This document shows positions 192 to 62,957 of a stretch of 64,000 bases of DNA, piece by piece; the stretch's first letter is position 1, and the number at the start of each line of letters is the position of its first letter. This DNA comes from Yeosuana aromativorans (GTDB lineage: Bacteria > Bacteroidota > Bacteroidia > Flavobacteriales > Flavobacteriaceae). The translations under genes and the position numbers were made by a program. Below the pieces are notes generated by a model. That model had not been told where the DNA came from, made no database searches, and was given only the letters and a program-made list of their open reading frames with translations. The stretch spans positions 461,942-525,941 of the forward strand of contig NZ_BMNR01000002.1 in NCBI RefSeq assembly GCF_014646655.1, written 5' to 3'.

Positions 192-1289
192 TTATTGATA
201 AACACGAACATAATCTATCTCCATGGTAGAACTTTGAAAGCTATCACTAATTGTACCACCTAAATTCCCACCCATGGCAACATTCAAAATGATGAACTGA
301 TTACTTGTAAATGGCCAGTTTTGATTATTTTTAGGTGACGGATTATATGTGTAATACACCTCATCATCCAATAAAAAAGTAATGCTGTTTTCTGTCCAAA
401 TCATGGAATACAAATGGAATTCTGTGGTTTCATTTGAAACAGAAACGGATTTATGGTTGATAGTGGCTCCATAGCTTGAAGTTGTGTGCAAAGCACTAGA
501 TACCTGTCCTAGGTTATTGCCTACATGCTCCATAATATCTATCTCACCGCATGCTGGCCAACCAACCGAACCAATATTTGCTCCCAGTAACCAAATGGCT
601 GGCCATGTTCCACTGCCATCTGGTAGTTTGGCTCGAACATCTATTCTTCCGTAGGTAAACTCAAATTTACCAGAAGTAAGCATTCTGGCCGAGGTAAATG
701 CATACCCTTGGTAATTTTCTCTTTGAGCCGTAATTTTTAAAACACCATTTTCTACTTTGGCATTATCCAATCTATTGGTATAATATTCGGATTCATTGTT
801 GCCCCAACCATTATCGCCATTACCAATATCATACCCCCAATTGGCCGGGTTTGGGCTTCCATCTTGATTAAACTCATCCTGCCAAACCAGTTGCAAATTG
901 TTGTCGGCGGCTTTTACAAAAACGGTTACCGAAATGGTCTTGCTTACAAAATTAAGACCATTATATGCCGAAACAATAACGGTATAAGTTTTTATACCTG
1001 GCGTAGTAAATGTATAGCTAAACTCATTTTGTGTAAGCGTTAAGGTTTCGCTGTTTATCAAAACCTTGTATGAGGTGGCATTTGATGCAGAGATAATGAA
1101 ATTGACCTCTCCACTTCCATCCCCATTAGGTTTTTCACTGTCTTTTCCAACTATATTTGCCGTAATGGAAAGATTGGATGGTTTTGTAATTTCATTGGCA
1201 GGATCTTCCCCACCACTGCTGCTACAAGACATAAAAACCAGTAGTAAAAACAAAGCAATGGGTTTGATATAATATAAAAAATTGAACAT
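192..1289 (-). CDS. GH16 endo-beta-glucanase (laminarinase-like) lipoprotein
   Basis: A 365-residue secreted enzyme expected to cut beta-1,3 or mixed-linked glucans at the cell surface. The N-terminus is hydrophobic and ends in a lipobox (FMSCSSSGG, Cys about residue 22). Residues about 40-125 look like a PKD/Ig-like beta-sandwich, and about 130-365 are the GH16 jelly roll. The catalytic signature GEIDIMEHVG is intact, with the two acidic catalytic residues E and E bracketing D, preceded by WPAIWLLG. The gene ends with tandem TAA TAG stops and is last in a minus-strand run with the GH5, GH30, SusD and SusC genes, which points to laminarin-type glucan use. The family call is firm; the exact linkage is inferred from the neighbourhood. 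Confidence 0.93.
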   Translation of the reverse strand: MFNFLYYIKPIALFLLLVFMSCSSSGGEDPANEITKPSNLSITANIVGKDSEKPNGDGSGEVNFIISASNATSYKVLINSETLTLTQNEFSYTFTTPGIKTYTVIVSAYNGLNFVSKTISVTVFVKAADNNLQLVWQDEFNQDGSPNPANWGYDIGNGDNGWGNNESEYYTNRLDNAKVENGVLKITAQRENYQGYAFTSARMLTSGKFEFTYGRIDVRAKLPDGSGTWPAIWLLGANIGSVGWPACGEIDIMEHVGNNLGQVSSALHTTSSYGATINHKSVSVSNETTEFHLYSMIWTENSITFLLDDEVYYTYNPSPKNNQNWPFTSNQFIILNVAMGGNLGGTISDSFQSSTMEIDYVRVYQ

Positions 1290-1290
1290 T

Positions 1291-3033
1291 TTAATTATAG
1301 TTTTGTTTAAAATTTAGATAATTCAAATTAAACCCACCAGTATCAAACACGACTTTAATCTTGTTGATTCCCTTGTTAAGTTTTATTGATGACAGTGTCA
1401 CTTGCTTATAAGAAACATTGCTTCCTGTTGATGGAAGCGAAACCAGTTCTGATTTTTCGCCATTTTGAAGTTCCAAATGGAGTTGACCCATAGTATTCTC
1501 ACTTGAGTAACGTATGATAACTTTATAGTCAGATGATTGTAATGCGTTAACTGTAAACAACAACCATTCACCGTTCTTTATATCAAACACTTCATATCCA
1601 TTGGAGTTTTCGTCTTGGCAAATTTGTATATCAACACCGTCATTTCGCATAACGCCTCCTTTATTCCAATCGCCTTGTATTCCTGTATCTACTTTATAAT
1701 TAATAAAATCATCATCTAAATACGCATAACCATTAGTTCCCAAGTCATATTCAGAAGCATAGATGGTTCCGGGAATGGTATGTGCTTTATAAGGTTTGGT
1801 TTCATTAGTTTGTATTTGCCTGAACATGGCGTCAATAACATCTGTCTTTATTGTTACATGTTCCATTTTGTAATTTTCAGCTAATTGCATCAATGCATTT
1901 TTAGCAAATTCCTTTGATGGTTTTTTACCACCCTTACTCCAGTATTCACGAATGGTTTCATAACCTGGGTTTTTGGTAACAGAAGTTACACCGGCAATGT
2001 TCTCTACCTTTTTCATGGGCCAAAATGCCCAACCAATATTATTTGATTCCACTAAGGAAATAGCATCTTTAAACCATACATTGGAATTTTCACCACTTTC
2101 ACCCAGCCAAATAGGGATATTGTAATGTGAACGGTAATCCAACATCTTTTGTATGGATCCCTTGGTATTATAATTCCAATACTTATGGAAACTTAACACC
2201 ATATTGTCATCCCATACTGGCAAAATACCTTCATAATTATTCCCCCAACAATTACCTTCAATAATAATGATATGATTATTGTCAACTTCCCTAATAGCTT
2301 TGGTTACACGCATCATTAATTCCCTTAAAGGCGCATTTGAGGTTTCATCACAACCATTGGGGTTGGTGCCAGTAAAATTCCAATTAGGTTCATTAATAAT
2401 ATCATAACCACCAATCCAAGGTTGGTCTTTATAACGTTCTGCCAATTTTTTCCAAAGTGCAATCATTTTTTCTTGATTGGCTTCACTTTCCCAAAGTGAT
2501 GGCTTTGTTTTATCATAATCTGAAATATTGGCATCATTTCCCTGACCACCAGGTGCACCGTGCAAATCCAAAATAAGGTACATTTTATTATCAGCACACC
2601 ACTGTAATAAACTATCAGTCATTGTGAAACCTTTTTCCAACCACGATACATCACCGTTGTTTTCATTTTCAATGGGAGGTGTAAAAAGATTATAATGCAT
2701 GGGCAACCTTATCGAATTAAAACCCCAGGCTTTCAGTGAATCTATATCACGTTTGGTGATTCCATTTGCTCTGTAGGCTTCGTAGAATTCTTCAGTATTT
2801 TCAGGTCCAACTAATTCTTGAATTTTTTGTTTAATAACATGTTGTGGCCCCGCAAAAGCTCCGGTCTGTATCATATAACCTTCTTGAATCATCCAGCCGC
2901 CAAGCCCTAAACCACGAAGTAGAACATTTTGGCCATTTCCATCTACAATTTTCTGGCCCTCACTATGTAAAAACCCTTGTCCATAAATGGATGTACACAA
3001 AACTGCAAAAAAATATATAATTGTTTTCTTCAT
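1291..3033 (-). CDS. GH5 family glucanase with C-terminal carbohydrate-binding region
   Basis: A 580-residue exported glycosidase starting with a signal peptide (MKKTIIYFFAVLCTSIYGQ). Residues about 20-380 form a GH5 (beta/alpha)8 barrel: LRGLGLGGWM near the start, the general acid in DIINEPNW and the nucleophile in IWLGESGE. The C-terminal part, about residues 430-580, looks like a CBM6-type beta-sandwich (YASEYDLGTNGYAYLDDD, GEWLLFTV, GGFNLNYLNF). The start lies 27 bases after the end of the GH30 gene upstream, and the stop is one base before the GH16 start region, so co-transcription is likely. GH5 members with this plan act on beta-1,3- or beta-1,6-glucans; the substrate is an inference from the locus. 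Confidence 0.88.
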   Translation of the reverse strand: MKKTIIYFFAVLCTSIYGQGFLHSEGQKIVDGNGQNVLLRGLGLGGWMIQEGYMIQTGAFAGPQHVIKQKIQELVGPENTEEFYEAYRANGITKRDIDSLKAWGFNSIRLPMHYNLFTPPIENENNGDVSWLEKGFTMTDSLLQWCADNKMYLILDLHGAPGGQGNDANISDYDKTKPSLWESEANQEKMIALWKKLAERYKDQPWIGGYDIINEPNWNFTGTNPNGCDETSNAPLRELMMRVTKAIREVDNNHIIIIEGNCWGNNYEGILPVWDDNMVLSFHKYWNYNTKGSIQKMLDYRSHYNIPIWLGESGENSNVWFKDAISLVESNNIGWAFWPMKKVENIAGVTSVTKNPGYETIREYWSKGGKKPSKEFAKNALMQLAENYKMEHVTIKTDVIDAMFRQIQTNETKPYKAHTIPGTIYASEYDLGTNGYAYLDDDFINYKVDTGIQGDWNKGGVMRNDGVDIQICQDENSNGYEVFDIKNGEWLLFTVNALQSSDYKVIIRYSSENTMGQLHLELQNGEKSELVSLPSTGSNVSYKQVTLSSIKLNKGINKIKVVFDTGGFNLNYLNFKQNYN

Positions 3034-3060
3034 TTCAAATCCTGATAAATACTTGTTAAT

Positions 3061-4527
3061 TTATTCCCAAACATAGGTGCCAACTGCCCCCGCTGCCAAT
3101 GAGGTCACAAACCATTTACCGTTGTATTTTACATTAAACGTTGTGCTTAAGTCTCCATTATTTTCAACAATTAAAACCTTTTTTCCATTAGGCGTTTTAA
3201 AAGCAACATTTTGTATGTCACCTGAGATGTTAGAACCTATTCTAACCGAACCAGATGGAACAAATTTTGATGCATGGGCAATTATATAGTATGCAACATT
3301 TCTGGTGATATTACCACCAGAACTAATGGTTAAAGCACCTTTACATGTTGAACAGCCACCATCTGTGTGCGGTTCAAAGGCTGGATTATTGGCGAGATTC
3401 CATTCCAAAGCATTTTTGCTCCAATTTCTCATGGAACCAATAATCACATTTGCCAAATGCCACTTTAAATCTCCTGCAAAATCACTTGAGGAGGATGTGT
3501 ATTGTTCTGTAAAATATAGGTTTTTATTGGGAAACGAATTATGAACGGTTGAAAGCGCACTGATATTGCCAGCATATAAATGAAATGCTGAACCATCAAT
3601 AAACTTATTGGCATCTGGATCATTTAAGACAGTAATTGGATAATCTGGACGATCACAGTTGTGGTCCCAAACTATTATTTTAGTTGTGATATTGGCACTG
3701 GTAAATGCTGGTCCTAAATGATTTTTAATAAAGTCTGCCTGTTCTACCGCACTCATCACCATGCTTGGATTATTACCCCCATGCTGTGGCTCGTTTTGAA
3801 CGGTAATAGCATCAACAGTAATACCCAGATTTTTCATTTCCTGAATATATTTTACAAAATATTGCGCATAGGCTCCATAATATTGAGGCTGCAAACTACC
3901 ACCTATTGTACTATTGTTGTCTTTCATCCAAACTGGAGCAGACCATGGAGATCCCAATATTTTAATGTTTGGGTTTATTTGTAAAATATCCTGCAAGACA
4001 CTTATAACGCCGTTTAAGTCTGGCTCTAAACTAAAATTACTTAATGTTTCATCTGTTTGCCCTGCGGGAACATCATCATAGCTAAATGGAGCTTCGTTTA
4101 AATCGGAAGCACCTATGCTGATTCTTAGATAGCTTATTGAAATGGAATTTTCAGAATTACCAAACAGTTCTTGCAATAACTCCGTTCTTTTTGTTGAACT
4201 TAATCCATTGATGACTTCTGCACTTCCTCCTGTTAGCGTAAAACCAAATCCATCTATGCTTTGATATGTTTGACTTTCATCTACCGTAATGTTAGGGTAA
4301 TTGTTGAAAGTAGTGTTAAAGCTCAAAACCGTGGACTGTTTCTTTAATAAGTCATTTTTGTTTGCTGTTGTTAACCAAAAATCCACATCATTGGTTGCTA
4401 CTGGGTTCTCGGGCGGATTAGGAGAAGGATTTGGGTCTTCTGGCTCATTTGTACTACCAGATGAACAATTTACCTGAAGCATTAAACTAAACAAGGATAT
4501 TATAGAGACAATGAGGCTTTTCTTCAT
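3061..4527 (-). CDS. GH30 family beta-glycosidase (first copy), exported
   Basis: About 488 residues. I start it at the second ATG because MKKSLIVSIISLFSLMLQVNC forms a clean lipoprotein signal; an ATG four codons upstream (4539) is possible. The GH30 barrel carries the fold entry YQSIDGFGFTLTGGSAE, the acid/base glutamate in ITVQNEPQHGG and the nucleophile in LYFTEQYT. A beta-rich C-terminal domain closes the protein (residues about 410-488), as in GH30 glucosidases. GH30 enzymes in laminarin loci usually remove beta-1,6-linked glucose branches or act as endo-beta-1,6-glucanases. A second GH30 gene lies directly upstream with only modest similarity, so the pair probably splits two linkages or product lengths. 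Confidence 0.9.
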   Translation of the reverse strand: MKKSLIVSIISLFSLMLQVNCSSGSTNEPEDPNPSPNPPENPVATNDVDFWLTTANKNDLLKKQSTVLSFNTTFNNYPNITVDESQTYQSIDGFGFTLTGGSAEVINGLSSTKRTELLQELFGNSENSISISYLRISIGASDLNEAPFSYDDVPAGQTDETLSNFSLEPDLNGVISVLQDILQINPNIKILGSPWSAPVWMKDNNSTIGGSLQPQYYGAYAQYFVKYIQEMKNLGITVDAITVQNEPQHGGNNPSMVMSAVEQADFIKNHLGPAFTSANITTKIIVWDHNCDRPDYPITVLNDPDANKFIDGSAFHLYAGNISALSTVHNSFPNKNLYFTEQYTSSSSDFAGDLKWHLANVIIGSMRNWSKNALEWNLANNPAFEPHTDGGCSTCKGALTISSGGNITRNVAYYIIAHASKFVPSGSVRIGSNISGDIQNVAFKTPNGKKVLIVENNGDLSTTFNVKYNGKWFVTSLAAGAVGTYVWE

Positions 4528-4561
4528 TATTATAAACATTTATATTATATTTTTAACAGTT

Positions 4562-6046
4562 TTAATACACTAATGATTGAATGGCATGGGCTGGGATTTC
4601 AATTAGGGCTTGTTCATCATTTACAAGTAGTTTATAAACTATTTTTTGGTCACTTGAATTCATGACCACAGTAACCATTGTTCCATCTGTGTTTAAAAAT
4701 GATGTGCTTAATAAAACGCTTCTACTAACCGAAGTACTTACCCGTTTTGCTCCTGGACGAATGAATTTAGAAAAATGCCCTATGTAATAATATGAAGGTG
4801 TGAAAATTAATTCACCAGTATTTGTATTGGCATGCACAGGTGCAAAACAAAAATTACCCACATGATTTGGCCCACCATTTTGGTCCAATAAAATGTTCCA
4901 ATCTGTCCACCCTACGGTACCATTATTAAAATCGTGAATCATACTTTCACCGTAATGCTCACCATTTGGCCAAAATTGTAATTTATTCGCATCAAATTTG
5001 TCGTTACAACCTTCGGTAAATAATAGTTTTTTTGAAGGATAATCCTCATTCACTCTTTTTACGTTATCAAACATAGGTTTGCCACCAGACCATGTCTCAT
5101 ACCAATGAAAGCCCATTCCCCAAACGTATTTTGAAGCTTCGGGGTCATTGTAAATAACATTGGCTCTATGGGTCATCAAATCCCTGTTATGGTCCCAAAC
5201 AATTATTTTTTTATCACTCCACCCAAGCTTTTTAAAAGTTGGTCCCAGGTTATTTTTTATAAAATCGCGTTCTGCTTCTGCAGTGTATATACACGATTCC
5301 CATGTTTGAATTGCCATAGGTTCATTTTGAACAGTAATCCCCCATATAGGAATTCCCTCTTTTTCATAAGCCTTTATAAATTTCACAAAATAATTTGCCC
5401 ATGGTTGGTAGCATTCTGGTAATAAAATTCCACCATGCAACATATCGTTGTTGTTTTTCATAAATGCAGGCGGACTCCATGGACTTGCAAAAGTAACCAG
5501 TCCATTTGCCTTTTGTATAGCCCTCTTTATCATTGGAATGCGATATTGTCTATCCTTTTCAATGCTAAACGTGCTCAACGTTGAGTCTCCTTCTTTTATA
5601 TAGGTGTAACTTTCACTACTAAAATCACAACTGTGTATTGTTGTTCTCATTAAAGAATATCCTATCCCTTTGTCTTTACTGTAATAAGCAGTTATCAATT
5701 GGTCTTGAGTTTCTGTATCCAACTTATAAAAAGTTTCTGCACTGGCATCAGTAATGGCACCACCTATCCCTATAAATGTTTGGAACGTTTTTTTAGGCTC
5801 AACAAAAACACTAATCTCTTTTTCTTTAGGTTGTTTTGTTTCGGAAAATGTTAGATTCTCAATTTTTGTTAATCTTAAATTTGTACTATCGGCTGTTGTG
5901 TAAACGGATATAGTTTTTCCTTTTGCAGAAAACTCCATATTGGCTTCTGGTTGGATAGACAGATTATTGTCTTTCAGTTTTTTGTTGCAAGACATGATTA
6001 TAACGCAAACAGAGAAAACGATATATAGGTTCTTAGGTGTCATCAT
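4562..6046 (-). CDS. GH30 family beta-glycosidase (second copy), lipoprotein
   Basis: A 494-residue lipoprotein (SVCVIIMSCNKK lipobox). The GH30 barrel follows a short N-terminal beta strand region: FQTFIGIGGAITDASAE opens the barrel, ITVQNEPMA holds the acid/base glutamate, and LLFTEGCN the nucleophile. It has the conserved GFHWYE tract and a C-terminal beta domain (VVMNSSDQKIVYKL). It resembles the GH30 glucosylceramidase/beta-1,6-glucosidase branch more than the neighbouring copy does. Starts MM, so 6046 or 6043 are equally possible. Being placed between the other GH30 gene and the glycan-binding protein, it is probably the branch-removing enzyme of this locus. Confidence 0.9.
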   Translation of the reverse strand: MMTPKNLYIVFSVCVIIMSCNKKLKDNNLSIQPEANMEFSAKGKTISVYTTADSTNLRLTKIENLTFSETKQPKEKEISVFVEPKKTFQTFIGIGGAITDASAETFYKLDTETQDQLITAYYSKDKGIGYSLMRTTIHSCDFSSESYTYIKEGDSTLSTFSIEKDRQYRIPMIKRAIQKANGLVTFASPWSPPAFMKNNNDMLHGGILLPECYQPWANYFVKFIKAYEKEGIPIWGITVQNEPMAIQTWESCIYTAEAERDFIKNNLGPTFKKLGWSDKKIIVWDHNRDLMTHRANVIYNDPEASKYVWGMGFHWYETWSGGKPMFDNVKRVNEDYPSKKLLFTEGCNDKFDANKLQFWPNGEHYGESMIHDFNNGTVGWTDWNILLDQNGGPNHVGNFCFAPVHANTNTGELIFTPSYYYIGHFSKFIRPGAKRVSTSVSRSVLLSTSFLNTDGTMVTVVMNSSDQKIVYKLLVNDEQALIEIPAHAIQSLVY

Positions 6047-6184
6047 TTGTTTTAAAAAATTGATTTCATTTTAATTGATTTAGATTGTCTGAAAGTAAGT
6101 TAGAATTGAAAATAGCCCATAATCATGATGAAAAGAGTATAGGCTATTTAACAATTAACTAAACTCAAACAAACTCAATTTTTA

Positions 6185-7078
6185 CTAGTTAGTGCCTCTC
6201 ATTTCTACGTTGGTTATTGCAATACCATCTCTCATATCATTACCACCACCTCTAATTACTAAATATGCCGTTCCTGTAGCTGTAGCAACAAATTTTCCTG
6301 GCTCATTAGGATAGGTAATTGCACCAAGATCACATCCAACAACTGATAACTTTCCACTAAATGGGTCACCACCGCATCCAGCCCAAGTATTAATGGTCAT
6401 AAGTTTTCCGCCTTCATTATAATCGCCTGATGTTGTAGGAACACTATATCCACAATAAATCTCAAACCAAGTATCAGAAACACCTGAAGTGGAGCTTACA
6501 AGCATATCAATTTGATATGTTTTTCCTTCTATTACATCAACGGCTTGATAAATACCTCTACCGCCGTACCCTGAAGCGGTTAAAGTGGCTTTTCCATTAG
6601 CAAAAGTCCATACACCATCCGAACTTCCTGTACCTCCTATTGTCCATTGTGCTATATCTTCGGGTGTGGCAAATTTTCCACCTTTAACAATATTTCCAGA
6701 ATTAGGATCAGATTCATCTACAGTTAATTCCTGTGAGGACATATAAGTAGCTCCACCTTTTGCAACTGCAGTATGGGAAAGTGTGTATGTGCCTGCATCA
6801 GGTAAAAAAATCTCTTCATTGACTTTGCCACGAAACATTCCAGATCCATCACCAACATCCCACCAATTTGTTATTACATTAGCTGTTGATTGGGCCTGTA
6901 AAGTATACCTATTTGTAACACCATTAACAGGGGTCACCGTGAAGGACGCATCAATATCTGTAGCTGCCAAACCATTGTTTTTAAAGGAATCTTCGGGTTG
7001 ACACGCTGTCATTAGTATCATGCTTATCAAGCTAAACATGATTACTGAATATTTTGTTATTCTGATTTTTATATTCAT
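6185..7078 (-). CDS. Surface glycan-binding lipoprotein (SusE/F position) with PKD and CBM-like domains
   Basis: 297 residues with a lipoprotein signal (MFSLISMILMTACQPED, Cys about residue 26). Residues about 40-125 are PKD-like (TNWWDVGDGSGMF, GTYTLSHTAV), and 130-297 form a beta-sandwich similar to CBM4/9-type modules (GGKFATPEDIAQWTIGG, aromatic residues Y, W, F through the domain). No catalytic motif is present. It sits directly after susD on the minus strand, the usual place for a SusE/F-like or SGBP protein that holds the glycan for import. The role is inferred from domain type and position. Confidence 0.8.
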   Translation of the reverse strand: MNIKIRITKYSVIMFSLISMILMTACQPEDSFKNNGLAATDIDASFTVTPVNGVTNRYTLQAQSTANVITNWWDVGDGSGMFRGKVNEEIFLPDAGTYTLSHTAVAKGGATYMSSQELTVDESDPNSGNIVKGGKFATPEDIAQWTIGGTGSSDGVWTFANGKATLTASGYGGRGIYQAVDVIEGKTYQIDMLVSSTSGVSDTWFEIYCGYSVPTTSGDYNEGGKLMTINTWAGCGGDPFSGKLSVVGCDLGAITYPNEPGKFVATATGTAYLVIRGGGNDMRDGIAITNVEMRGTN

Positions 7079-7090
7079 GAGAACTTTATT

Positions 7091-8602
7091 TTAGTAATTA
7101 GGATTTTGAACAAGTTTAGTGCCTTCCAATTCCCTAAACGGAATTGGCAATACTTCATTCTTGCCTGAAACGAAGCCTTCGTCTGCCAGTACTGTGGCTG
7201 CTTTGCCCCATCTAACAAGATCAAACCATCTATGGCCTTCTCCTGCCAATTCTAATCGGCGCTCTTTCATAATGGCATCCATTGAAACGGGTACAGAAGG
7301 CAAACCAACTCTTGCTCTTACAGCATCCAAAAGAGCTTGTGCTCTAGCTCCTGATGCTCCTAAAGCTTCAGCTTCTAACAAATACGTGTCAGCCAAACGA
7401 ATGATGTAAACATGTTGCTGGTAGTTTAATTCTTTATTCCCTCCTCCGGTAGATGCGTCACTATTAAGAGGCATGAACTTTTTAAGATAGTAGCCCTTAT
7501 CTTGATCGCCCAACACATAATCTATTTGATTTGCAGCTTTCATGGCTCCCAAATTTGCTACGGTAGCATCTAAACGTGGGTCATTTTTTATAGCATCATA
7601 AAAATTTTGTGTGAAAACATTAAAACTCCAACCGGGGGCATAATCTGGGGCAGAGTTATCCAATCTTGAATAACTTCTTGGACCTACCATAATGTTTATA
7701 GTGTTTCCTTCATCACTACCTGAACCCCAATTGCCCCAACCAGCATTACTTTTATTAGTGTTGGCTGTTTCTAAGATAGATTCAGAATTGAATTTGTTAC
7801 TGAAGTCCCATAAATCGGCAAAATTATCCAATAACTTATATCCATATTGACTGGTACCACCTGGTGTTCCATTTACTTCTGCCAGTTCAGTTGCTGCTTG
7901 TGCATTTTTTCCATCGTATAAATAAACTTTGCCAAGCAAAGCTTGCGCTGCTCCCTTAGTTAATCTTGCCCCTTCTGTGGCAATATCAATAGTACTGGGC
8001 AGACCTGCTTTAGCTTCTTCCAAGTCTGCTTCAATTTGTGCATAAACATCTGCTTTTGGAGCTTGTTCTATGTTATAAATATCATTGGCTGAAACAGGTT
8101 CTGTCATCAAAGGAATGTTTCCAAACATTTTGACCAATTGAAAATAAAAATACCCTCTTAACGCTTTTACCTCTGCTGTAAAACGCTTTTTTGTATTGTC
8201 ATCCATAGGAACGTCTGGCAATTTTTTTAACATAACATTGGCTCTAAAAATGCCTTGATAATAATCATTCCAGTAGCTTACTGGCATGTTTCCTGGGTCA
8301 ATTGTATAATGGGCAAAACCATGAATACCAGCACCATCATCTGGTCCACCGCCACCTGCATAATGGTCATCTGATGCCGCGTTCATAAATGTCACCATAT
8401 TTTCAAACCCTCCTGATTCTTTACCTACTTTGTCATAAACTGCTATCACACCAGAAAATGCTTGCGCTTCATCTTGATAATAATTGTCTTCCAAGAATGT
8501 TCCCTTGGGTTGTAACTCTATATAATCTTTACTACAAGAGACTATTGCCACTACGGTAAAAATTACAGTTAATATCAAATAATTTAAATTCTTTAGTTTC
8601 AT
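7091..8602 (-). CDS. susD-like: SusD/RagB family outer-membrane glycan-binding lipoprotein
   Basis: 503 residues, the usual SusD length. The lipobox (TVVAIVSCSKDY) is followed by LQPKGTFLEDNYYQ, typical of SusD N-termini. TPR-like helical segments carry RGYFYFQLVKMFGNIPL, and the C-terminal part has ERRLELAGEGHRWFDLVRWGKA, the SusD C-terminal signature. It forms the lid of the SusC transporter and captures oligosaccharides. Its start is 10 bases after the susC stop, so the two are co-translated. The substrate is inferred from neighbouring beta-glucanases. Confidence 0.96.
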   Translation of the reverse strand: MKLKNLNYLILTVIFTVVAIVSCSKDYIELQPKGTFLEDNYYQDEAQAFSGVIAVYDKVGKESGGFENMVTFMNAASDDHYAGGGGPDDGAGIHGFAHYTIDPGNMPVSYWNDYYQGIFRANVMLKKLPDVPMDDNTKKRFTAEVKALRGYFYFQLVKMFGNIPLMTEPVSANDIYNIEQAPKADVYAQIEADLEEAKAGLPSTIDIATEGARLTKGAAQALLGKVYLYDGKNAQAATELAEVNGTPGGTSQYGYKLLDNFADLWDFSNKFNSESILETANTNKSNAGWGNWGSGSDEGNTINIMVGPRSYSRLDNSAPDYAPGWSFNVFTQNFYDAIKNDPRLDATVANLGAMKAANQIDYVLGDQDKGYYLKKFMPLNSDASTGGGNKELNYQQHVYIIRLADTYLLEAEALGASGARAQALLDAVRARVGLPSVPVSMDAIMKERRLELAGEGHRWFDLVRWGKAATVLADEGFVSGKNEVLPIPFRELEGTKLVQNPNY

Positions 8603-8612
8603 AATCTTTTTT

Positions 8613-11600
8613 TTAAAATTGTAAATTAATACCTAACATGCCTGTTCTTGCCTGAGGATAATACCCTCTGTCAATACCAAAAACGCCTCCCCCGATTTCT
8701 GGATCAAATCCAGAATATTTAGTAAGAGTAAATAAATTTTCCCCTGTTACATAAAGTCTTATTTTTTCAATACCAAACTTATTTAACACATCCTTAGGTA
8801 GACTGTAACCAAATTGTATTGTTTTGAATCTTAAATAATCACCATCTTCTAAATAAAAATCAGACGGATTGGAAAAATTCTTATTGGTATCATTTGCGGC
8901 CAATCTTGGAAATGTATTGGAGGTGCCTTCGCCTGTCCATCGTCCAAGAGCTGATTTTTGGAAATTGGCCGTACCAATATCCAATCTTCTAATAGCCTGA
9001 TAAATTTTATTTCCGGCGGCTCCTTGGGCAAATACTAATAGGTCAAAATTTTTGTAATTAAAATTAAACGTGAACCCAAAGGTGACTTTTGGTATGGAAC
9101 TTCCTAGAAAATCCCTGTCATCTGATGTGATGGTTCCATCGCCATTGATGTCCTTCCATTTGAAATCTCCAGGAACGGCATTAGGTTGAATTAAACCTCC
9201 ATCGGTGTTAGTGTAAGCATTTATTTCAGCTTGGTTTTGGAAAATACCATCTGTCATAAATCCATAGAAAGAGTTGAATGGATGTCCCACTTCAGACCGA
9301 ATGATATAAGGAACGGAAGATGCCTGGATGCCATCTCCTGTAATAAAATTGGTATCTGTACCTAAATAAGTGACTTCATTCTTTACAGTTGAAACATTAC
9401 CATTTAATGAAAATCCAAAGTCATCAAATTGTTTATTATATCCTAAACTGATATCCAAACCTGTGTTTTTCATATCTCCTACGTTTACGGCTGGACTTCC
9501 TGTTGCTCCAACATAACCAGGTAAAGGCACATTTCTTAAGATATCTGAAGTCTTTTTAAGATACCAATCAACTGTGAGGTTTAGTCCTCTAAAAAGGGTG
9601 GCATCAAAACCAATATTGGTCTGGCTGGTTTCTTCCCATTTTAAATCGGGGTTAGCCGGTGCATTTGGACTATTACCTACAACAATAGATCCTTGCGATT
9701 CATTCCCAAGAAAATAATTTCGTCCATCACCAATAGTCGATAAATATCTAAAATCACCAATATCATCGGTTCCTGTAACACCATAACTGCCTCTAAACTT
9801 TAATTGGGTAACAACGTCATTTTCTGGCCAGAAATCTTCTTTTGAAGGCACCCAGCCCAATGAAAATGATGGGAAGTAACCGAACTTGTTGTTAGAACCA
9901 AAACGACTGGATCCATCTTTACGTATGATACCTGTTAATAAATACTTATCCTTGTAAGCATAGTTTAATCGTGCAAATAATGATATCACTTTATGTATGG
10001 TGCCTTTGTATGCTCCTGCAATAATATTATCTTGGCTTGTTTCAAACCCAAAATCAGCATCTTTATAGTTGTTGACAGGCAGGTTATTGTAAGTCACGTT
10101 TTGTCCATCGGTAATGTTATCAACATAAACACCTTGACCCAATAATATTGTAAAATCATGGTCGTTCAATTGTTTTTCGTAGGATATAATATTTTCAATG
10201 GTCCAACCAAAACCTCTATTGGTGCTTTTAGACAAGCTGTTTTGTGAGGTCACAAATGAAGAGGTTAAAAAAGATTCTGGATTAAAATTCCTGTCACCCC
10301 AAAACGCCATTTTACCAGAAAATGTTGATCTTGCTTTAAGCCCCTCAATTGGCTCAATTTCTACATAAGCATTACCTACAAAATTATTTGACCAACTATA
10401 ATTACCTAATTTTGTTTTTACAAAAGCCAAAGGGTTGGTCATTTCTTGTCCCACATTAGATGAGATACCATAAGGAAATCCATTAGGTGCATAAATGATG
10501 TTTGGTTGTGCATAATCACCTTGACCAATAAGCACAGGGTCGGTTTGAATTGCCGGTGTTATAGGGTCTAAGTTAATTGCAGAAGACAGTGGCCCTCCAT
10601 AATAGTTATTAGAATCTATACCTGTGTTTTTTTCATCAGAAAAACCAAATGTTTGACCCAATCTAATATAATCATTGATTTTATGGGTAGAATTCAAACG
10701 GAAATTCTTTCTTGTATAATGCGAAATATCAGACGTAACAATACCATCCTGATCCAAATATCCAAAAGAAGCATAAAATGTAGATTTATCATTTCCGCCA
10801 CTTACGCTTAATTCATGGCTTTGACGTTGAGCACTGTTATTGTAAATTAAATCTTGCCAGTCAGTCCCTTTCCCATAGGATTGTGGGTTTGGGAAAGGCA
10901 ATTGAAAATTATTAGGATCTGCACTATTGGCATATCTTTCGTTCATTAAAGTTGCATATTCTGTTGCATTTAATAAATTTAATTTTCTTGCTGGCCCAGA
11001 AACACCAGTGTAACCATTGTAGTTTACACTAAGTTTACCAGATTTGCCTTTTTTGGTTGTTACCAATATAACACCTGCAGCAGCCCTTGAACCATAAATA
11101 GCTGCTGAAGCCGCATCTTTCAATACTTCTATAGAGGCAATATCAGATTGATTCAAATACCCAATACCACCATTGTCAACAATTACTCCGTCAACAACCC
11201 AAAGTGGGTCATTGTTGTTTATTGTTGTGATTCCTCGCACTCTAATGGTTGATGATGAACCGGGTTGTCCAGAATTGGTTACAATGGTCAAACCAGAAGT
11301 ACGACCTTGTAAAGATTGTTCTATCCTTGTAACAGGAAGATCTTCTAAGTCTGATGCTTTAACTCCCGAAATTGCACCTGTTACAACACTTTTCTTTTGA
11401 GTACCATACCCAACCACGACCACTTCATCAAGTGATTCAACATTCTCTTTTAAGGTTATTGCAATACTACTTTGACCGTTTATTGATACTTCAGTCTTGG
11501 TATAGCCAATATAGCTAATTACCAAAACACCATTAGACGGTGCGTCAATTTGAAATTTACCATCAAAATCAGTTGTGGTTCCTTTAGATGTGTTTTTAAG

Positions 11601-11735
11601 CAATACTGTTGCCCCTGGAATTGGCATTCCACTTTCATCACTAATCGTTCCACTAACGGTCAAGTCTTGAGCTTGAATATAAGCAGTGAACAATAATGAT
11701 AAAAAACACAAAACATGTAATTTAGTAATTCTCAT
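8613..11735 (-). CDS. susC-like: SusC/RagA family TonB-dependent transporter
   Basis: 1040 residues. A signal peptide (LCFLSLLFTAYIQAQ) is followed by a carboxypeptidase-regulatory-like domain (SGTISDESGMPIPGATVLLK, about 25-100), the TonB box region SLDEVVVVGYGTQ, a plug domain with the SusC motif TIRVRGITTINNNDPLWVVD, and a 22-strand barrel ending MLGINLQF. It imports oligosaccharides across the outer membrane using TonB energy, paired with the adjacent SusD. It heads the minus-strand operon and faces the regulator across a 292-base gap. Confidence 0.97.
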   Translation of the reverse strand: MRITKLHVLCFLSLLFTAYIQAQDLTVSGTISDESGMPIPGATVLLKNTSKGTTTDFDGKFQIDAPSNGVLVISYIGYTKTEVSINGQSSIAITLKENVESLDEVVVVGYGTQKKSVVTGAISGVKASDLEDLPVTRIEQSLQGRTSGLTIVTNSGQPGSSSTIRVRGITTINNNDPLWVVDGVIVDNGGIGYLNQSDIASIEVLKDAASAAIYGSRAAAGVILVTTKKGKSGKLSVNYNGYTGVSGPARKLNLLNATEYATLMNERYANSADPNNFQLPFPNPQSYGKGTDWQDLIYNNSAQRQSHELSVSGGNDKSTFYASFGYLDQDGIVTSDISHYTRKNFRLNSTHKINDYIRLGQTFGFSDEKNTGIDSNNYYGGPLSSAINLDPITPAIQTDPVLIGQGDYAQPNIIYAPNGFPYGISSNVGQEMTNPLAFVKTKLGNYSWSNNFVGNAYVEIEPIEGLKARSTFSGKMAFWGDRNFNPESFLTSSFVTSQNSLSKSTNRGFGWTIENIISYEKQLNDHDFTILLGQGVYVDNITDGQNVTYNNLPVNNYKDADFGFETSQDNIIAGAYKGTIHKVISLFARLNYAYKDKYLLTGIIRKDGSSRFGSNNKFGYFPSFSLGWVPSKEDFWPENDVVTQLKFRGSYGVTGTDDIGDFRYLSTIGDGRNYFLGNESQGSIVVGNSPNAPANPDLKWEETSQTNIGFDATLFRGLNLTVDWYLKKTSDILRNVPLPGYVGATGSPAVNVGDMKNTGLDISLGYNKQFDDFGFSLNGNVSTVKNEVTYLGTDTNFITGDGIQASSVPYIIRSEVGHPFNSFYGFMTDGIFQNQAEINAYTNTDGGLIQPNAVPGDFKWKDINGDGTITSDDRDFLGSSIPKVTFGFTFNFNYKNFDLLVFAQGAAGNKIYQAIRRLDIGTANFQKSALGRWTGEGTSNTFPRLAANDTNKNFSNPSDFYLEDGDYLRFKTIQFGYSLPKDVLNKFGIEKIRLYVTGENLFTLTKYSGFDPEIGGGVFGIDRGYYPQARTGMLGINLQF

Positions 11736-11795
11736 TAGTCTTTAGTTTAAATTAGTTTTTGTTAATTTTTTGTGTAGTTTTTTATGATTATCTAA

Positions 11796-11827
11796 CAATA
11801 TTAATAGTAATTTTATGCACTTCACAA
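11796..11827 (-). promoter_or_regulatory. Candidate Bacteroidota-type promoter for the susC operon
   Basis: Read on the minus strand, TTG at 11827-11825 is followed after 21 bases by TAATATTG at 11803-11796. This matches the Bacteroidota sigma factor pattern (-33 TTG, -7 TAnnTTTG) with one mismatch. It lies about 60 bases upstream of the susC ATG and just downstream of the direct repeats at 11840-11900. Confidence 0.4.
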
Positions 11828-11839
11828 AAATTATCCATT

Positions 11840-11900
11840 ACAAAAATACATCATATTATATTTTAAAATCATACAAAAACACATCATATATTTTTTAAAT
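11840..11900. promoter_or_regulatory. Tandem direct repeat, likely operator of the PUL regulator
   Basis: The tract ACAAAAAyACATCATAT occurs at 11840-11856 and again at 11873-11889, with one mismatch and similar T/A-rich continuations. The copies are offset by 33 bases, close to three helical turns, so a dimer could bind one face of the helix. The site is upstream of the proposed susC promoter in the gap with the divergent regulator gene. Spaced direct repeats are common sites for PUL regulators; the pairing with this regulator is an inference. Confidence 0.45.
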
Positions 11901-12027
11901 ATTTGAATATTAATATTTTATAATTTAATTTAATTTATTACAATATTATTTTTTCAAATTAAAAACACTACATTAGTAAAAAGGTTATATTTTATTGAAT
12001 TGTTAATGTTGAAAACTGCTTATTTCT

Positions 12028-14931
12028 ATGCTTTTATTATTTAAAAAAAAGAGTTCAATCCTTGATTGTTTTCGGTATACTATAATTTTTACTCTACTGT
12101 TTGGGGTTTCTTCAGTTTTGGGTCAAATAAAAAGTATAGGATTGCCTGATATAATAAATTATAAAAAAACAGATTATAAAAGTGGTACACAGAACTGGAA
12201 TATAGATCAGGACGCAAATGGAAATATGTATTTTGCAAATAATAATGGCCTATTACAATTTGATGGGTCAAATTGGCACACATATGTCGTTCCTAATGTA
12301 AATAGCATAAGAAGTGTTAAGGTTGAAGATAGTACCGGTAGGATTTTTATTGGTGCATATAACGAATTTGGTTATTTTGAGTCTGCCTCAAATGGCGATT
12401 TAACCTATGTATCATTACTTCCTTTAATCAAAGATGATAGGTTCAAGAAATCTGATTTCATATGGAAAATACACCTGTTTGGTGACGCTGTTATTTTTCA
12501 ATCTTTTACCGCAGCTTATATTTTTAAGGATAATAAGATAAGTATTCTACCGGCACCAAAGCGGTTTCAATTTTCTTTCAAAGTAAACAACAAACTGTAT
12601 TTCCAAGATGTTGGTTCTGGTATCCTAGAATTTATTAACGGGAACTTAATACCTTTAAAAGGTACTGAAGGATTGAATAACTCTGAAGTTTGGGGGATAG
12701 TTTCTATACCAGACAATACATTGCTTATTACTACTTTAGAGTCTGGTGTTTATGTTTATAAAAATCAAACGTTACAACACTGGAATACTGAGGCCGGTCA
12801 ATTTATCAGTAAAAATGGATCTTTGGGAGATGTTGTTATTAATGATTCATTAATAGTTATTAACTCTGTACTAAGTGGAATTATTATCTGTAATCTTCAA
12901 GGAGAAATCATCCAACACATCGATTTAAAAAAGGGCTTGATAAACAATACAATATTAAGTTCGTTTATAGATGCTAAAAAAAATCTTTGGTTAGGACTTG
13001 ATAATGGTATTTCATATATTAACATTAATTCTCCCTTTACCTATTTCTCATCAAGCCTTAACAACAGTTCTGTGTATGCATCTGTTATCCATAATGGTTT
13101 ACTTTACGTTGCTACTAATCAGGGTGTATTTTACCATAAAATTGAGGACAGGTTTAAAGATGACACGTTTGTACTTGTGGATGGCACAACAGCTCAATCC
13201 TGGAATATTCAAGTCATATCTGGTGAACTGATTTGTGCCAATAATAAAGGGGTTTTAATTATTGAGGGTGGTAAAGTCATAAAATCATTAAACCATTCTG
13301 GTTATTTTGGTTTTAAACAACTCCCAAATCATTCCAAGTACATTATTGGAGCAAACTATAGTGGCTTTGATATTTTTGAAAAAAACCAAAAAGGGATAGT
13401 TTTTAAAAATAAAATTCAAAATTTTTATGAGTCATCAAAAGATTTTGAAGTTGATGATGCTTTTGTATGGCTAAAAAAGGATGAATTTCTTTATCAAATG
13501 GTATTAACTGAAAGTCTGGATGGTTTTTATGTAACAAAAAAGATTGACAGCATTAATGGCGAAAATAATATAAGTTGTATGCAAAAAATAAATGGTACAT
13601 TATATTTTATTGCAAACAACCACTTCTACAGCTATTCCAAAGACAAAGGAGTTTTTGAAGAGAACATCAATTTAAGTAAATTATTTAGTGACATTCCCCC
13701 TGTCAGCTCATTAACTGAAGATTCATATGGCAATTTGTGGTATTCGTATAATGAATCATTGGGCGTATTCATGAAAAATAAAGATGGAAGCTATAAACAT
13801 GAGTTTGAGCAATTTTCAAATTTAACAGGCAAAATAATGAGCGATTATTTATCTGTAAATGAACTTGGTCCGGACAGTTTCTTTATTGGTCTTATAAACG
13901 GCCTTGTATGCTATGATTCTGACTATTCAACAAAGACCTTAAGTAAACCTAAAGTTTTTATAAGAAGTTTTTCTTTTGGAAAGGATACAATTTTTAGAGG
14001 AAATCCACAGCAAAAACCATTGGATTTAACTTTGCCTTTTGCTTCAAACAACGTTAGGTTCACCTTTTCTTCACCAGAATTTGAAAACTCAAAGAATATC
14101 CAGTATTCCTACCAATTGGAGCCGTTTGATAAACAATGGAGCAATTGGTCTACAGCAACTGTAAAAGAATATACCAACCTAAAGGAAGATAATTATAAAA
14201 TGCGGGTAAAAGCTAAAAACAGTTATGGTATTGATTCTGACGTTGCATCAATAACATTTAGTATTTCGCCTCCTTGGTATAGAAGTTATTTAGCATACAT
14301 AATTTATTTTTCCATAATCATACTCTTTCTTTACCTTCTTTCTATTGTTCAAAAAAGAATTTTAAGAAAAAAACAATATTATAAAACCATTGAACAAAGA
14401 AAACTATATCTGGAAAAAGAATCAAAGATTAGAAAAGAGCAATATGAACTGGAAAAGGAAATAGAAAAATTAAACAGGGAAAGATTGCAAACAAGAATTA
14501 TTTCAAAGGACAAAGAACTTGTAAACCATTCATTGCAAGTTGTCAAAAAAAATAAAATATTAAATGGAATCATTCATAAATTAAAAGAAATGGAGGTAGA
14601 TAACATGTGTGATGACACTAAATTTCAAATAAATAAATTAAAAAAGAGCATAATAAAAGAAGTACATACAGACAAAGGGTTAAAACACCTTGAGAAACAT
14701 ATAAAAAATGTGCATTTTGATTTTTTAAAACGATTGAAAGACAAATACCCAAATATATCACCCAGAGAACTAGATTTATCAACTTATTTGCGTCTCAACA
14801 TGTCTACAAAAGAAATTGCTGAGATTATGAATATATCTAGTGGCGGGGTTGAATTGGCGCGTTATAGATTGCGAAAAAAATTAAATTTAAAAAGGCACGA
14901 AAACTTAACTGGATTTTTAATGGCCATATAA
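12028..14931 (+). CDS. Membrane-spanning propeller/Y_Y_Y sensor with LuxR-type HTH
   Basis: 967 residues. An N-terminal signal/anchor (residues about 14-33) precedes periplasmic beta-propeller repeats (NMYFANNNGLLQFDGSNW, NLWLGLDNGISYI) and a Y_Y_Y domain (about 690-755, YSYQLEPFDKQWSNW). A transmembrane helix follows at about 760-782 (YLAYIIYFSIIILFLYLLS), then a Lys/Glu-rich coiled coil (785-850) and a C-terminal LuxR-like helix-turn-helix (ISPRELDLSTYLRLNMSTKE, then IAEIMNIS). It has no kinase or receiver domain, so it differs from hybrid two-component PUL regulators. It probably senses a glucan fragment in the periplasm and activates the divergent susC operon directly from the membrane. 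Function is inferred from layout and position. Confidence 0.88.
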   Translation: MLLLFKKKSSILDCFRYTIIFTLLFGVSSVLGQIKSIGLPDIINYKKTDYKSGTQNWNIDQDANGNMYFANNNGLLQFDGSNWHTYVVPNVNSIRSVKVEDSTGRIFIGAYNEFGYFESASNGDLTYVSLLPLIKDDRFKKSDFIWKIHLFGDAVIFQSFTAAYIFKDNKISILPAPKRFQFSFKVNNKLYFQDVGSGILEFINGNLIPLKGTEGLNNSEVWGIVSIPDNTLLITTLESGVYVYKNQTLQHWNTEAGQFISKNGSLGDVVINDSLIVINSVLSGIIICNLQGEIIQHIDLKKGLINNTILSSFIDAKKNLWLGLDNGISYININSPFTYFSSSLNNSSVYASVIHNGLLYVATNQGVFYHKIEDRFKDDTFVLVDGTTAQSWNIQVISGELICANNKGVLIIEGGKVIKSLNHSGYFGFKQLPNHSKYIIGANYSGFDIFEKNQKGIVFKNKIQNFYESSKDFEVDDAFVWLKKDEFLYQMVLTESLDGFYVTKKIDSINGENNISCMQKINGTLYFIANNHFYSYSKDKGVFEENINLSKLFSDIPPVSSLTEDSYGNLWYSYNESLGVFMKNKDGSYKHEFEQFSNLTGKIMSDYLSVNELGPDSFFIGLINGLVCYDSDYSTKTLSKPKVFIRSFSFGKDTIFRGNPQQKPLDLTLPFASNNVRFTFSSPEFENSKNIQYSYQLEPFDKQWSNWSTATVKEYTNLKEDNYKMRVKAKNSYGIDSDVASITFSISPPWYRSYLAYIIYFSIIILFLYLLSIVQKRILRKKQYYKTIEQRKLYLEKESKIRKEQYELEKEIEKLNRERLQTRIISKDKELVNHSLQVVKKNKILNGIIHKLKEMEVDNMCDDTKFQINKLKKSIIKEVHTDKGLKHLEKHIKNVHFDFLKRLKDKYPNISPRELDLSTYLRLNMSTKEIAEIMNISSGGVELARYRLRKKLNLKRHENLTGFLMAI

Positions 14932-15174
14932 TAAATAATTTTATTTATTTCATTATACCTGTTTTTATTTACCAATACATAATACGTGAGAAGCTTATTT
15001 AACTTACAAAACTTTAACAAACAATATATTATCGATTTTACACCTAATAAAAGGGTGCTTACCGGCTTAATATTTTTAAAAATAGGCTTTCAAAACAAAA
15101 AAGTTCAAACCACTGATACCAGTCCGCTGCTTTTAAAAAAATCCAGTATTAATGAGGGTTTCGGAGAAAATAAG

Positions 15175-15211
15175 AAACCGGACAATTCTCTTGCTAAGAA
15201 TTGTCCGGTTT
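15175..15211. terminator. Perfect 15-bp hairpin beside the tRNA fragment
   Basis: AAACCGGACAATTCT (15175-15189) pairs perfectly with AGAATTGTCCGGTTT (15197-15211) around a 7-base loop. Its position immediately next to the tRNA 3' end suggests it is the original terminator of that tRNA on the minus strand. It may also stop transcription from the regulator gene on the plus strand, though a T tract is short. Confidence 0.7.
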
Positions 15212-15212
15212 A

Positions 15213-15235
15213 GTGACCTCGACAGGATTCAAACC
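15213..15235 (-). other. tRNA 3'-end fragment, probable attachment site scar
   Basis: Read on the minus strand the sequence is GGTTTGAATCCTG followed by TCGAGGTCA: a T-loop (TTTGAAT) with part of its stem, then a 7-base acceptor arm and the discriminator A. The preceding bases do not complete the T-stem and no D arm, anticodon arm or 5' acceptor is found to the right, so this is only the last part of a tRNA. Integrative elements that use tRNA genes leave such 3' copies at one end, and the neighbouring hairpin would be the native tRNA terminator. The amino acid cannot be told from this piece. Confidence 0.6.
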
Positions 15236-15692
15236 TTACGATTTTATCCTAATATTTATAGGGTCTATGCTAAATTCTATGTTTTATGTTGACGAATTGT
15301 GAATTCGATATAATACTCAATGTTTCTTTTTAATATATCGTCTAATACAAATATATATTATTTAAAAAAACAATCTTAAAAAATTCTATTTTTTTGTGCT
15401 AAGTATTAAATTTAAATGTGGAATTAAGCTTATTTAGATAGAGTAAACATGGTGAACCATATAGAGTAGATAAAAGTGAGCACACTATAATTAAAACTGT
15501 CGTCATGACAGGGGTTATTTATACCCGCAACACACAACAGATTATATATCAATCATTTACAAGAATAAAAATTAAACTGTTAGCCGATTTGTTGACGATA
15601 TTATAAATGAACTTAAAGTAAAATGCTTTACTTTCTGATTGCATAAATATATAATTTATGCATTTTTAAACCTATATAAAACACGATTTATT
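15236..15692. other. AT-rich non-coding stretch inside the possible element edge
   Basis: No convincing gene. It contains short AT-rich tracts and an 8-bp inverted repeat GCATAAAT/ATTTATGC (15641-15661) followed by TTTTT, a weak plus-strand terminator candidate. Taken with 14932-15174, this is the largest gene-free gap between the glucan locus and the metal region. An open frame at 14986-15213 runs through the hairpin and has no family features. Confidence 0.5.
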
Positions 15693-37648: not shown

Positions 37649-38080
37649 CTAGTTTGTATGCATATTGCCCGTGTTCATTCCTTTGGCACTCATCATCTTG
37701 ATGCAGGAATTCATACACTCATCGCTCATCATGCCTTGATCGTGCATCATTTGCATCATGTGAGTCATCATTTTTTCGTCTTTCATCATGGAGTGCATCA
37801 TATTCATTGACATTATACTGTCATTCATCATATTCATACCTTCACTATTCATCATCATATTCATCATTCCTTTATCCCCTTGCATCATTTGCATAGCACG
37901 CGGATTGTTTTTCATTTTTCCCATAAATTCTGTCATCATATCATGGTCACCTACGATGTTTTGCATCATTTGACCTCTCATTTCTGGGTTTTGCATCATT
38001 GCATTTACATTGGCATCTTGTTTGCAGCTTGTTAAGGTAAACAGACCAATTACCGTTAAAAATGTTACTAATGTTTTCAT
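37649..38080 (-). CDS. Met-rich copper-binding lipoprotein (copy 1)
   Basis: 143 residues with a lipobox (GLFTLTSCKQD). About 40 residues are Met, in MM and MMxM pairs through the mature chain (QMMQGDKGMMNMMMNSEGMN), ending SDECMNSCIKMMSAKGM with two Cys. Met clusters bind Cu(I)/Ag(I). The C-terminal SxECMNSCIKMMSAxGM block is nearly identical in the second copy at 56875-57339, so it may be the functional core. It is directly downstream of an HMA-AraC regulator gene, as is the second copy. Confidence 0.82.
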   Translation of the reverse strand: MKTLVTFLTVIGLFTLTSCKQDANVNAMMQNPEMRGQMMQNIVGDHDMMTEFMGKMKNNPRAMQMMQGDKGMMNMMMNSEGMNMMNDSIMSMNMMHSMMKDEKMMTHMMQMMHDQGMMSDECMNSCIKMMSAKGMNTGNMHTN

Positions 38081-61943: not shown

Positions 61944-62957
61944 ATGAAAAACATAGCTGTTATAGGATATGGTGTTATCGGCAAAAGAGTTGCCGATGCC
62001 ATTAATTTACAAGACGATATGAATATCGTGGGGGTTTGCGATGTTATTAATGATTGGCGCATGCAAAATGCGGTAAGAAAGGGCTATAATATCTATGCAG
62101 CCACCACAAATGCTGAAAAGGAAATGAAAAATTCTGGCATTGCAGTAAAAGGGAGTATGCAAGACCTTTTGAAAAAAGTAGATCTTGTAGTGGACTGCAC
62201 CCCAAAAAATATTGCAGCAAAAAATGTTGAAATCTATAAAACCAAAGGCATCAAGTTTATTGTTCAAGGTGGTGAAAAGCACACAACAACAGGTCATTCG
62301 TTTAGTGCAGAAGCTAATTATGAAACGGCCTTAAATCTTGATGCCACTAGAGTGGTCTCTTGCAATACTACTTCGATATTAAGAACCCTTGGCGCATTAA
62401 AAAGAGCAGGGCTACTTGATTATGCAAGAGGCACTTTATTGCGACGGGCAACCGACCCGTGGGAAAGCCATTTGGGTGGCATCATGAACACCATGTTGCC
62501 CGAAAAAGAAATCCCCTGCCACCAAGGTCCCGATGCACAAAGCGTAGATCCAGATTTAAATGTCATCACATCCGCAGTAAAGGTACCGGAAACGTTGAGC
62601 CATATGCATTACTGGAATGTGAAATTAAAAAGGCAAACAACAAAGGAAGAAGTGTTGAACGCATTTAGAAAATCTAGCCGTATTAAACTTATTCGTTATG
62701 ACCAAGGATTGGTTTCCAACAATACCATCAAGGAGATGTTTCTGGATATGGGAAGGCCATGGGGTGACATGTATGAGGTAGCCCTTTGGGAAGATATGCT
62801 AAAGGTGCAGGGTGATGAACTTTTTTATGCCTATGTTGTCGATAACCAAGCCATTGTTATTCCTGAAACCATCGATGCCATACGTGCGCTTTTGGGAATA
62901 GAAAAAGATGGTTCAAAATCTATCTTTAAAACAAATCAAAGCTTATCTATTGCATAA
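61944..62957 (+). CDS. gap (type II): Type II (archaeal-type) glyceraldehyde-3-phosphate dehydrogenase
   Basis: 337 residues. The N-terminal Rossmann motif is AVIGYGVIGKRVADAINL and the catalytic Cys is in VSCNTTSILRTLGALKRAG (about 140), with HLGGIMNTMLP after; these are archaeal type II GAPDH features, and not those of the common bacterial Gap (SCTTNCL). It can use NAD or NADP in glycolysis or gluconeogenesis. Such genes are rare in Bacteria. It follows ndh by 7 bases and precedes a methyltransferase and a class I aldolase, forming a cassette probably gained by transfer. Confidence 0.9.
   Translation: MKNIAVIGYGVIGKRVADAINLQDDMNIVGVCDVINDWRMQNAVRKGYNIYAATTNAEKEMKNSGIAVKGSMQDLLKKVDLVVDCTPKNIAAKNVEIYKTKGIKFIVQGGEKHTTTGHSFSAEANYETALNLDATRVVSCNTTSILRTLGALKRAGLLDYARGTLLRRATDPWESHLGGIMNTMLPEKEIPCHQGPDAQSVDPDLNVITSAVKVPETLSHMHYWNVKLKRQTTKEEVLNAFRKSSRIKLIRYDQGLVSNNTIKEMFLDMGRPWGDMYEVALWEDMLKVQGDELFYAYVVDNQAIVIPETIDAIRALLGIEKDGSKSIFKTNQSLSIA

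Follow-up and report, generated by a model that had tools for sequence, protein, structure and literature searches.

The window, a stretch of 64,000 nucleotides (C2:461942-525941 in the whole source genome G000, 3.76 Mb in 34 contigs), contains at positions 15210-15236 the 3′ end of a tRNA-Arg(ACG) gene on the minus strand, whose plus-strand letters are TTAGTGACCTCGACAGGATTCAAACCT, and directly beside it a minus-strand hairpin (15175-15211) followed by a T-rich stretch. An earlier note on this DNA had described a tRNA fragment of about 23 bases next to a perfect 15-bp hairpin, and both are real: the fragment comprises 24 tRNA nucleotides plus 3 nt of 3′ flank, and the hairpin arms (15175-15189 and 15197-15211) are 100% complementary over 15 bp around a 7-nt loop (-23.2 kcal/mol in the tRNA direction), overlapping the 27-bp core by 2 nt. 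ARAGORN found no whole tRNA in the window, and a search of the window against Rfam gave no match. When the whole genome was searched with a 22-nt pattern at up to two mismatches, only two places were found, and none with the reversed control. The second is at C2:588575-588601, inside an intact minus-strand tRNA-Arg(ACG) (C2:588578-588652), which is where the note had predicted one, beyond the right end of the window and on that strand. The two cores form an exact same-strand repeat of 27 bp, 111,424 bp apart by their coordinates, and we refer to them as attR (in the window) and attL (62.6 kb beyond its right end); the sequence between them occupies the window from 15237 to 64000 and continues for 62.6 kb to C2:588575.

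Adjacent to the intact tRNA, on the same strand and 233 bp from its end by coordinates, is the gene for a 418-aa tyrosine integrase (C2:587088-588344, minus strand), with Arm-DNA-bind_5, Phage_int_SAM_5 and Phage_integrase domains in an uninterrupted reading frame. The genome has 16 PF00589 matches, of which no other falls within the element. Searching the contigs of public genomes yielded relatives of this integrase at 38 loci (55-93% identity), nearly all in Flavobacteriaceae records. An intact same-strand tRNA-Arg lies 222-253 bp upstream of int in 33 of the 38, with anticodon ACG or TCG in every one of the 33, and the other five have a partial or degenerate tRNA 3′ end at the same position, as expected for stacked or old copies. 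Across Flavobacteriaceae, these integrases thus form a family that is narrow in its choice of target, tRNA-Arg with anticodon ACG or TCG, and this arrangement provides a simple signature for locating such elements. By our placement of the catalytic motifs, the first catalytic Arg (TG-x-R) is replaced in all 39 integrases (L010 7088-8344 and L113-L150), by Ser in 24 and by Ala in 15, and all 37 that reach the H, R, H and Y positions retain them.

Relatives lacking the insertion were sought, and a genome of the same genus (G004) has the flanks and no element: on its contig C6, the left flank (from window 14988 on) runs without a break into an intact tRNA-Arg(ACG) and on into the right-flank genes. 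The joined G000 flanks gave a single 1,676-bp alignment to it (78.8%) across the junction, and the alignments of the occupied left and right ends to G004 each stop at the junction. The left-flank match is only ~250 bp long and has a second copy beside another G004 tRNA-Arg, so that the left side of the empty site rests mainly on contiguity with the orthologous right flank. We rejected the left flank as conserved chromosome, blastn with the G000 left side having given only this ~250-bp relic and the tRNA as common to the left flanks at tRNA-Arg(ACG) in G002-G006; the left-hand genes of G004 are found elsewhere in G000. With the 27-bp repeat and the integrase at the far end, the empty site upholds the note's view of an element inserted to the right, and the alignments show the left-end fragment and the sequence following it to be what such an insertion would leave behind. 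In the mechanism that we propose, the tyrosine integrase would recombine a matching attP with the 3′ end of the tRNA gene. Insertion restored the tRNA at attL, the far end, beside int, and the old last 24 tRNA nucleotides with the sequence after them stayed at the near end, as the empty site shows. We infer the strand exchange in the tRNA 3′ end, and likewise conjugal transfer and the terminator and attenuator functions considered below, from the sequences compared. Left of attR, at 192-14931, are genes named by eye as SusC/SusD-like together with a large regulator-like gene, and a homologue of this cluster occurs in G005:C80 (59-61% protein identity).

The hairpin beside attR lies inside what remains of a serine-recombinase gene, a 75-codon stretch from its 3′ end (14986-15213, plus strand), which in tblastn matched at 61-62% recombinases whose genes adjoin tRNA-Arg sequences in G003 and G004. 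The G004 recombinase has Resolvase and Recombinase domains, and no Resolvase-domain match was found anywhere in G000. Of the intact relatives, the one in G004:C14 ends at tRNA-Arg(TCT) and the one in G003:C48 at a 3′ fragment of a tRNA, and a second G004 relic is at the tRNA-Arg(ACG) of C6, where the tRNA is intact and no tyrosine element is present. In both intact copies (n=2) the frame continues into tRNA sequence. The stop of the G000 relic was rejected as the end of an intact recombinase gene, since the intact frame passes the hairpin into the tRNA and the frame with the TAG is not that of the gene. The relic is what is left of a previous occupant of the site or of a gene formerly located there, and the serine-recombinase genes are possibly a second element family at the same tRNA-Arg sites.

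The attR hairpin sequence is contiguous with the intact tRNA in G004, and in G001 the same element end adjoins a different hairpin, which puts the hairpin on the host side. It belongs to the pre-insertion sequence downstream of the tRNA, here the end of the decayed recombinase gene. The earlier reading of fragment and hairpin together as an integration scar thus stands for the tRNA fragment, which is the element boundary, and not for the hairpin, which is outside the element. In our survey of fragments and hairpins (18 rows, of which three are duplicates and one is at a contig edge), a host-side hairpin in the 80 bases downstream scored above 30 of 30 shuffles in 14 of 15 distinct tRNA-Arg fragments and tied in one. 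Counting against this, scoring gave no above-shuffle hairpin at the intact tRNAs of G004:C6 and G006, which no element adjoins, although an imperfect hairpin is seen by eye next to them. The reading that fits the attR hairpin best is that of a putative intrinsic terminator of tRNA-Arg that has been displaced.

The element brings a hairpin of its own at attL, ~25 nt after the tRNA and between it and int. Across 39 aligned leaders, of which 38 rows are distinct, the paired share of cells is 91.7%, a percentage that leans towards the G000 row from which the structure was taken; 8 of 13 pairs are changed on both sides, and covariation was 0.365 compared to 0.120 in shuffled and 0.055-0.086 in slid versions. 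Covariation therefore shows the structure of the int-leader hairpin and provides evolutionary evidence for a putative int-leader terminator in Bacteroidota. Many leaders among L113-L150 (for example L120, L127, L130 and L140) have a second strong hairpin ~75 bp before the int start. At the opposite end, 15237-15692 (minus strand) is non-coding, and its first ~170 bp (15237-15410), which include an outward TAnnTTTG box, are conserved in all four elements compared, those of G000, G001, Confluentibacter sediminis and Maribacter; this end is 95.7% identical to that of G001 over 299 bp. A scan of the left end with the Bacteroidota promoter consensus gave no strict -33/-7 match, and the -33 part was not found.

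These features recall ICEKp1 of Klebsiella, whose insertion leaves the tRNA-Asn terminator at the far end; int is then co-transcribed with the tRNA and attenuated by leader stem-loops, which act as a potential terminator (PMC13023037). The G000 element has in common with it the presumed host terminator at the far end, an int that follows the tRNA and is read in its direction, and a leader stem-loop. That the terminator was moved to the far end on insertion is indicated by the hairpin beside attR, the contiguity in G004 and the 14 of 15 fragments. ICEKp1 differs in its phylum, its tRNA-Asn target and its integrase, and the mechanism was tested there, whereas that of G000 is drawn from sequence and covariation (PMC13023037). 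By analogy with ICEKp1, the leader hairpin is probably where tRNA transcripts stop, so that less read-through reaches int, and the left end with its TAnnTTTG box may be the far-end promoter that the ICEKp1-type model calls for. Displacement of the terminator as such has already been published for ICEKp1 (PMC13023037). We propose tentatively, and at chances somewhat short of even for the reading taken jointly, that flavobacterial tRNA-Arg elements independently use an ICEKp1-type switch (terminator displaced, int behind the tRNA promoter, and a covarying leader terminator setting read-through), that a conserved outward promoter at the far end (the TAnnTTTG box of four elements) would act on int in the excised circle alone, that the 3′ ends of the same tRNA-Arg genes would also serve a second, serine-recombinase element family, and that its gene end would be read into the tRNA. 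The covarying leader hairpin offers a testable case for tRNA-promoter control of integrases in Bacteroidota as well as Proteobacteria.

For the interior of the element, 54 protein slots were scanned against family libraries, some proteins twice. Beyond the 64 kb, where the note had advised a search for an integrase or mobilisation genes, the tyrosine integrase and conjugation genes were found beside the intact tRNA. The tra genes (C2:580089-586911, plus strand) include TraG (TIGR03783, 322.5 bits, cut-off 261.55); matches to TraK, TraM and TraN were below the NCBIfam cut-offs, and those of VirB2-, VirB3- and VirB5-like proteins were weak. The protein at the TraJ position had no match in either library and is 87-90% identical to its counterparts in Maribacter and Flagellimonas. 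A second module (C2:538024-542525, plus strand) encodes a coupling protein (T4SS-DNA_transf, above cut-off), a DUF5712 protein and an SSB, and an RteC homologue (C2:560802-561656) was above its Pfam cut-off. We infer that the DUF5712 protein (C2:540043-541083) is a candidate relaxase, a catalytic role suggested by its HxH stretch (HIHIIVSRKD, invariant in the three proteins aligned) and its coupling-protein neighbour; no paper naming DUF5712 was found in the literature searched, and Pfam lists the family as unknown. The segment C2:536283-537248 was considered as a transposase and rejected, having a weak TIGR03299 match instead.

Gene order was compared with elements of Flagellimonas hymeniacidonis (61.4 kb), Maribacter sp. 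(52.7 kb) and Confluentibacter sediminis (59.4 kb between cores). That common to Flagellimonas and Maribacter is int, TraN to VirB2, amidase, cargo, three small genes, RteC-like, coupling protein, DUF5712, SSB, cargo and attR, and the G000 element follows it except that its cargo slots are larger; its backbone genes are grouped into the same modules and are close in length to theirs. Features by which ICEs are recognised are found in it: a site-specific recombinase at one end (the integrase with its three Pfam domains), direct-repeat att sites of 27 bp with an empty site in G004, and T4SS genes with a coupling protein (TraG and T4SS-DNA_transf above cut-offs, the rest weaker). The element is thus a predicted ICE that shares its backbone with the flavobacterial relatives named above and, judging by its genes, appears self-transmissible between cells. 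Like the CTnDOT family of Bacteroides, it has homologues of TraG, RteC and, at scores under the cut-offs, putatively TraK, TraM and TraN. CTnDOT has a longer transfer operon and a non-tRNA target; unlike it, the G000 element has a shorter transfer operon and targets tRNA-Arg.

Metal-resistance genes occupy 16892-54082 of the window (minus strand) and encode a TonB receptor, a Zn/Cd P-type ATPase, Fur, CusA/CzcA RND pumps, a Cu P-type ATPase, an ArsP permease, a multicopper oxidase and CusB. They are followed by an archaeal-type (type II) GAPDH gene (61944-62957, plus strand; TIGR01546, 339.8 bits, cut-off 232.9) and, past the right end of the window, by genes for a class I FBA, an AMP/thymidine phosphorylase and a PRPP synthetase (C2:525556-532543) and a second Cu-type P-type ATPase (C2:533510-535579). 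That the metal and archaeal-type genes are element content, as the note had supposed, agrees with their position between attR (window 15236) and attL (C2:588575), and they are cargo filling the slot between the ssb/mob module and attR. In Flagellimonas this slot has a single ORF of 80 aa or more, and in Maribacter ~30 kb of different genes. Since the 23-base scrap is the exact boundary of a large mobile element, these genes can be treated as transferable cargo. Two other cargo slots hold a SusC/SusD-like region (C2:548525-552966, by eye and similarity) and a Gabija pair (C2:564203-568215; GajA 946 bits, GajB 756 bits). A four-gene set after the Gabija pair (C2:568228-574426) gave one weak JetC match (36.7 bits) and is possibly a divergent Wadjet-like system; a 1,344-aa protein for which we have no explanation adjoins it.

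The explanation as a whole, that the fragment is attR of a 111,424-bp ICE in tRNA-Arg(ACG), with a displaced terminator, a leader hairpin and metal and archaeal-type cargo, is in our judgement very nearly certain. The alternative closest to it accepts the site-specific insertion and takes the element for a former ICE that is now an island with dead conjugation. An IS3-type orfA remnant beside the tra operon, between virB2 and the amidase gene, a transfer gene set smaller than that of CTnDOT, and the decayed relative in C. sediminis (int in two pieces, tra partly lost) would fit such a fate, but int is uninterrupted in G000 and the backbone genes common to Flagellimonas and Maribacter are all present at similar length, and we regard it as unlikely, though worth keeping in mind. 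Less probable still is a composite of at least two stacked elements with the inner att sites lost. Stacking is common in these elements: at least two are present in G001, where a leader hairpin also follows the inner core at 37932, and in C. sediminis and Maribacter the host-side hairpin at attR is a leader hairpin that an older element from this family left there, older leader hairpins beside cores showing that stacking has occurred. The 111 kb moreover exceeds the same-contig, same-strand spans of the relatives (~5.7-61.4 kb). Against this, no third core was found within two mismatches genome-wide and no degenerate core above chance (the best other match in the element has eight mismatches, near shuffles), a single integrase lies inside, and the modules are ordered as in the smaller ICEs, with more room taken by cargo; as both a third core and an inner integrase are absent, we rejected the composite.

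The remaining readings concern the fragment itself. It might be the scar of a serine-recombinase element on the left, the 111 kb being something else, as the position of the hairpin within the recombinase relic and the intact relatives ending at tRNA-Arg 3′ ends could suggest. Yet the exact repeat and the element-end sequence are on the right side, the left end of the tyrosine element is conserved without a recombinase in G001, C. sediminis and Maribacter, and G004:C6 combines a recombinase relic with an intact tRNA and no tyrosine element, leaving this reading very improbable. Scraps resembling tRNA and hairpins are frequent in genomes, and a chance match or an ordinary tRNA pseudogene by an unrelated terminator might on that ground be considered, but the 27-bp exact same-strand repeat, an integrase at the predicted end and the empty site in a relative leave it a negligible probability, and we take the empty site in G004 and the exact repeat to rule it out.

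The preferred reading, an ICE at a tRNA-Arg 3′ end, has precedents. ICEs in tRNA genes of Flavobacteriaceae, tRNA-Arg-ACG included, are already in print (PMC8694125, PMC6764341). In the ICECspPOL2 / ICEEaIII group of Chryseobacterium and Elizabethkingia, ICECspPOL2 is described as a 116-kb ICE at the 3′ end of tRNA-Glu-TTC, with an 18-bp direct repeat, T4SS and T4CP genes and antibiotic resistance, and ICEEaIII members are reported in tRNA-Arg-ACG among others (PMC8694125). The G000 element is like these in being a large flavobacterial ICE at a tRNA 3′ end with a short direct repeat, T4SS and T4CP, the comparison with the ICEEaIII group covering the described integration site, and unlike ICECspPOL2 in the latter's tRNA-Glu-TTC target and antibiotic resistance (PMC8694125). 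In a 10K genomic island of Riemerella anatipestifer, a tyrosine integrase adjoins Arg-tRNA, and precise integration and excision are reported; compared with the G000 element, it is 10 kb long, has a 53-bp repeat and, in the accessible text, no conjugation genes are described for it (PMC6764341). A tRNA before int in the same direction corresponds to the STI shape of PMC2951348. The element family and the int-leader hairpin were not found in the literature searched, whose coverage excluded most subscription papers.

Serine-recombinase genes are intact in L074 8001-9743 and L075 2800-4305, at the 3′ ends of different tRNA-Arg. At the tRNA-Arg site of G001:C88 (L102-L107), at least two elements are stacked, and one of them has a block, with stress-type genes by eye, that is 81-90% identical to C2:440001-461026; this segment is just left of the window, outside the ICE in G000, and the block is also present in G005 and G002.
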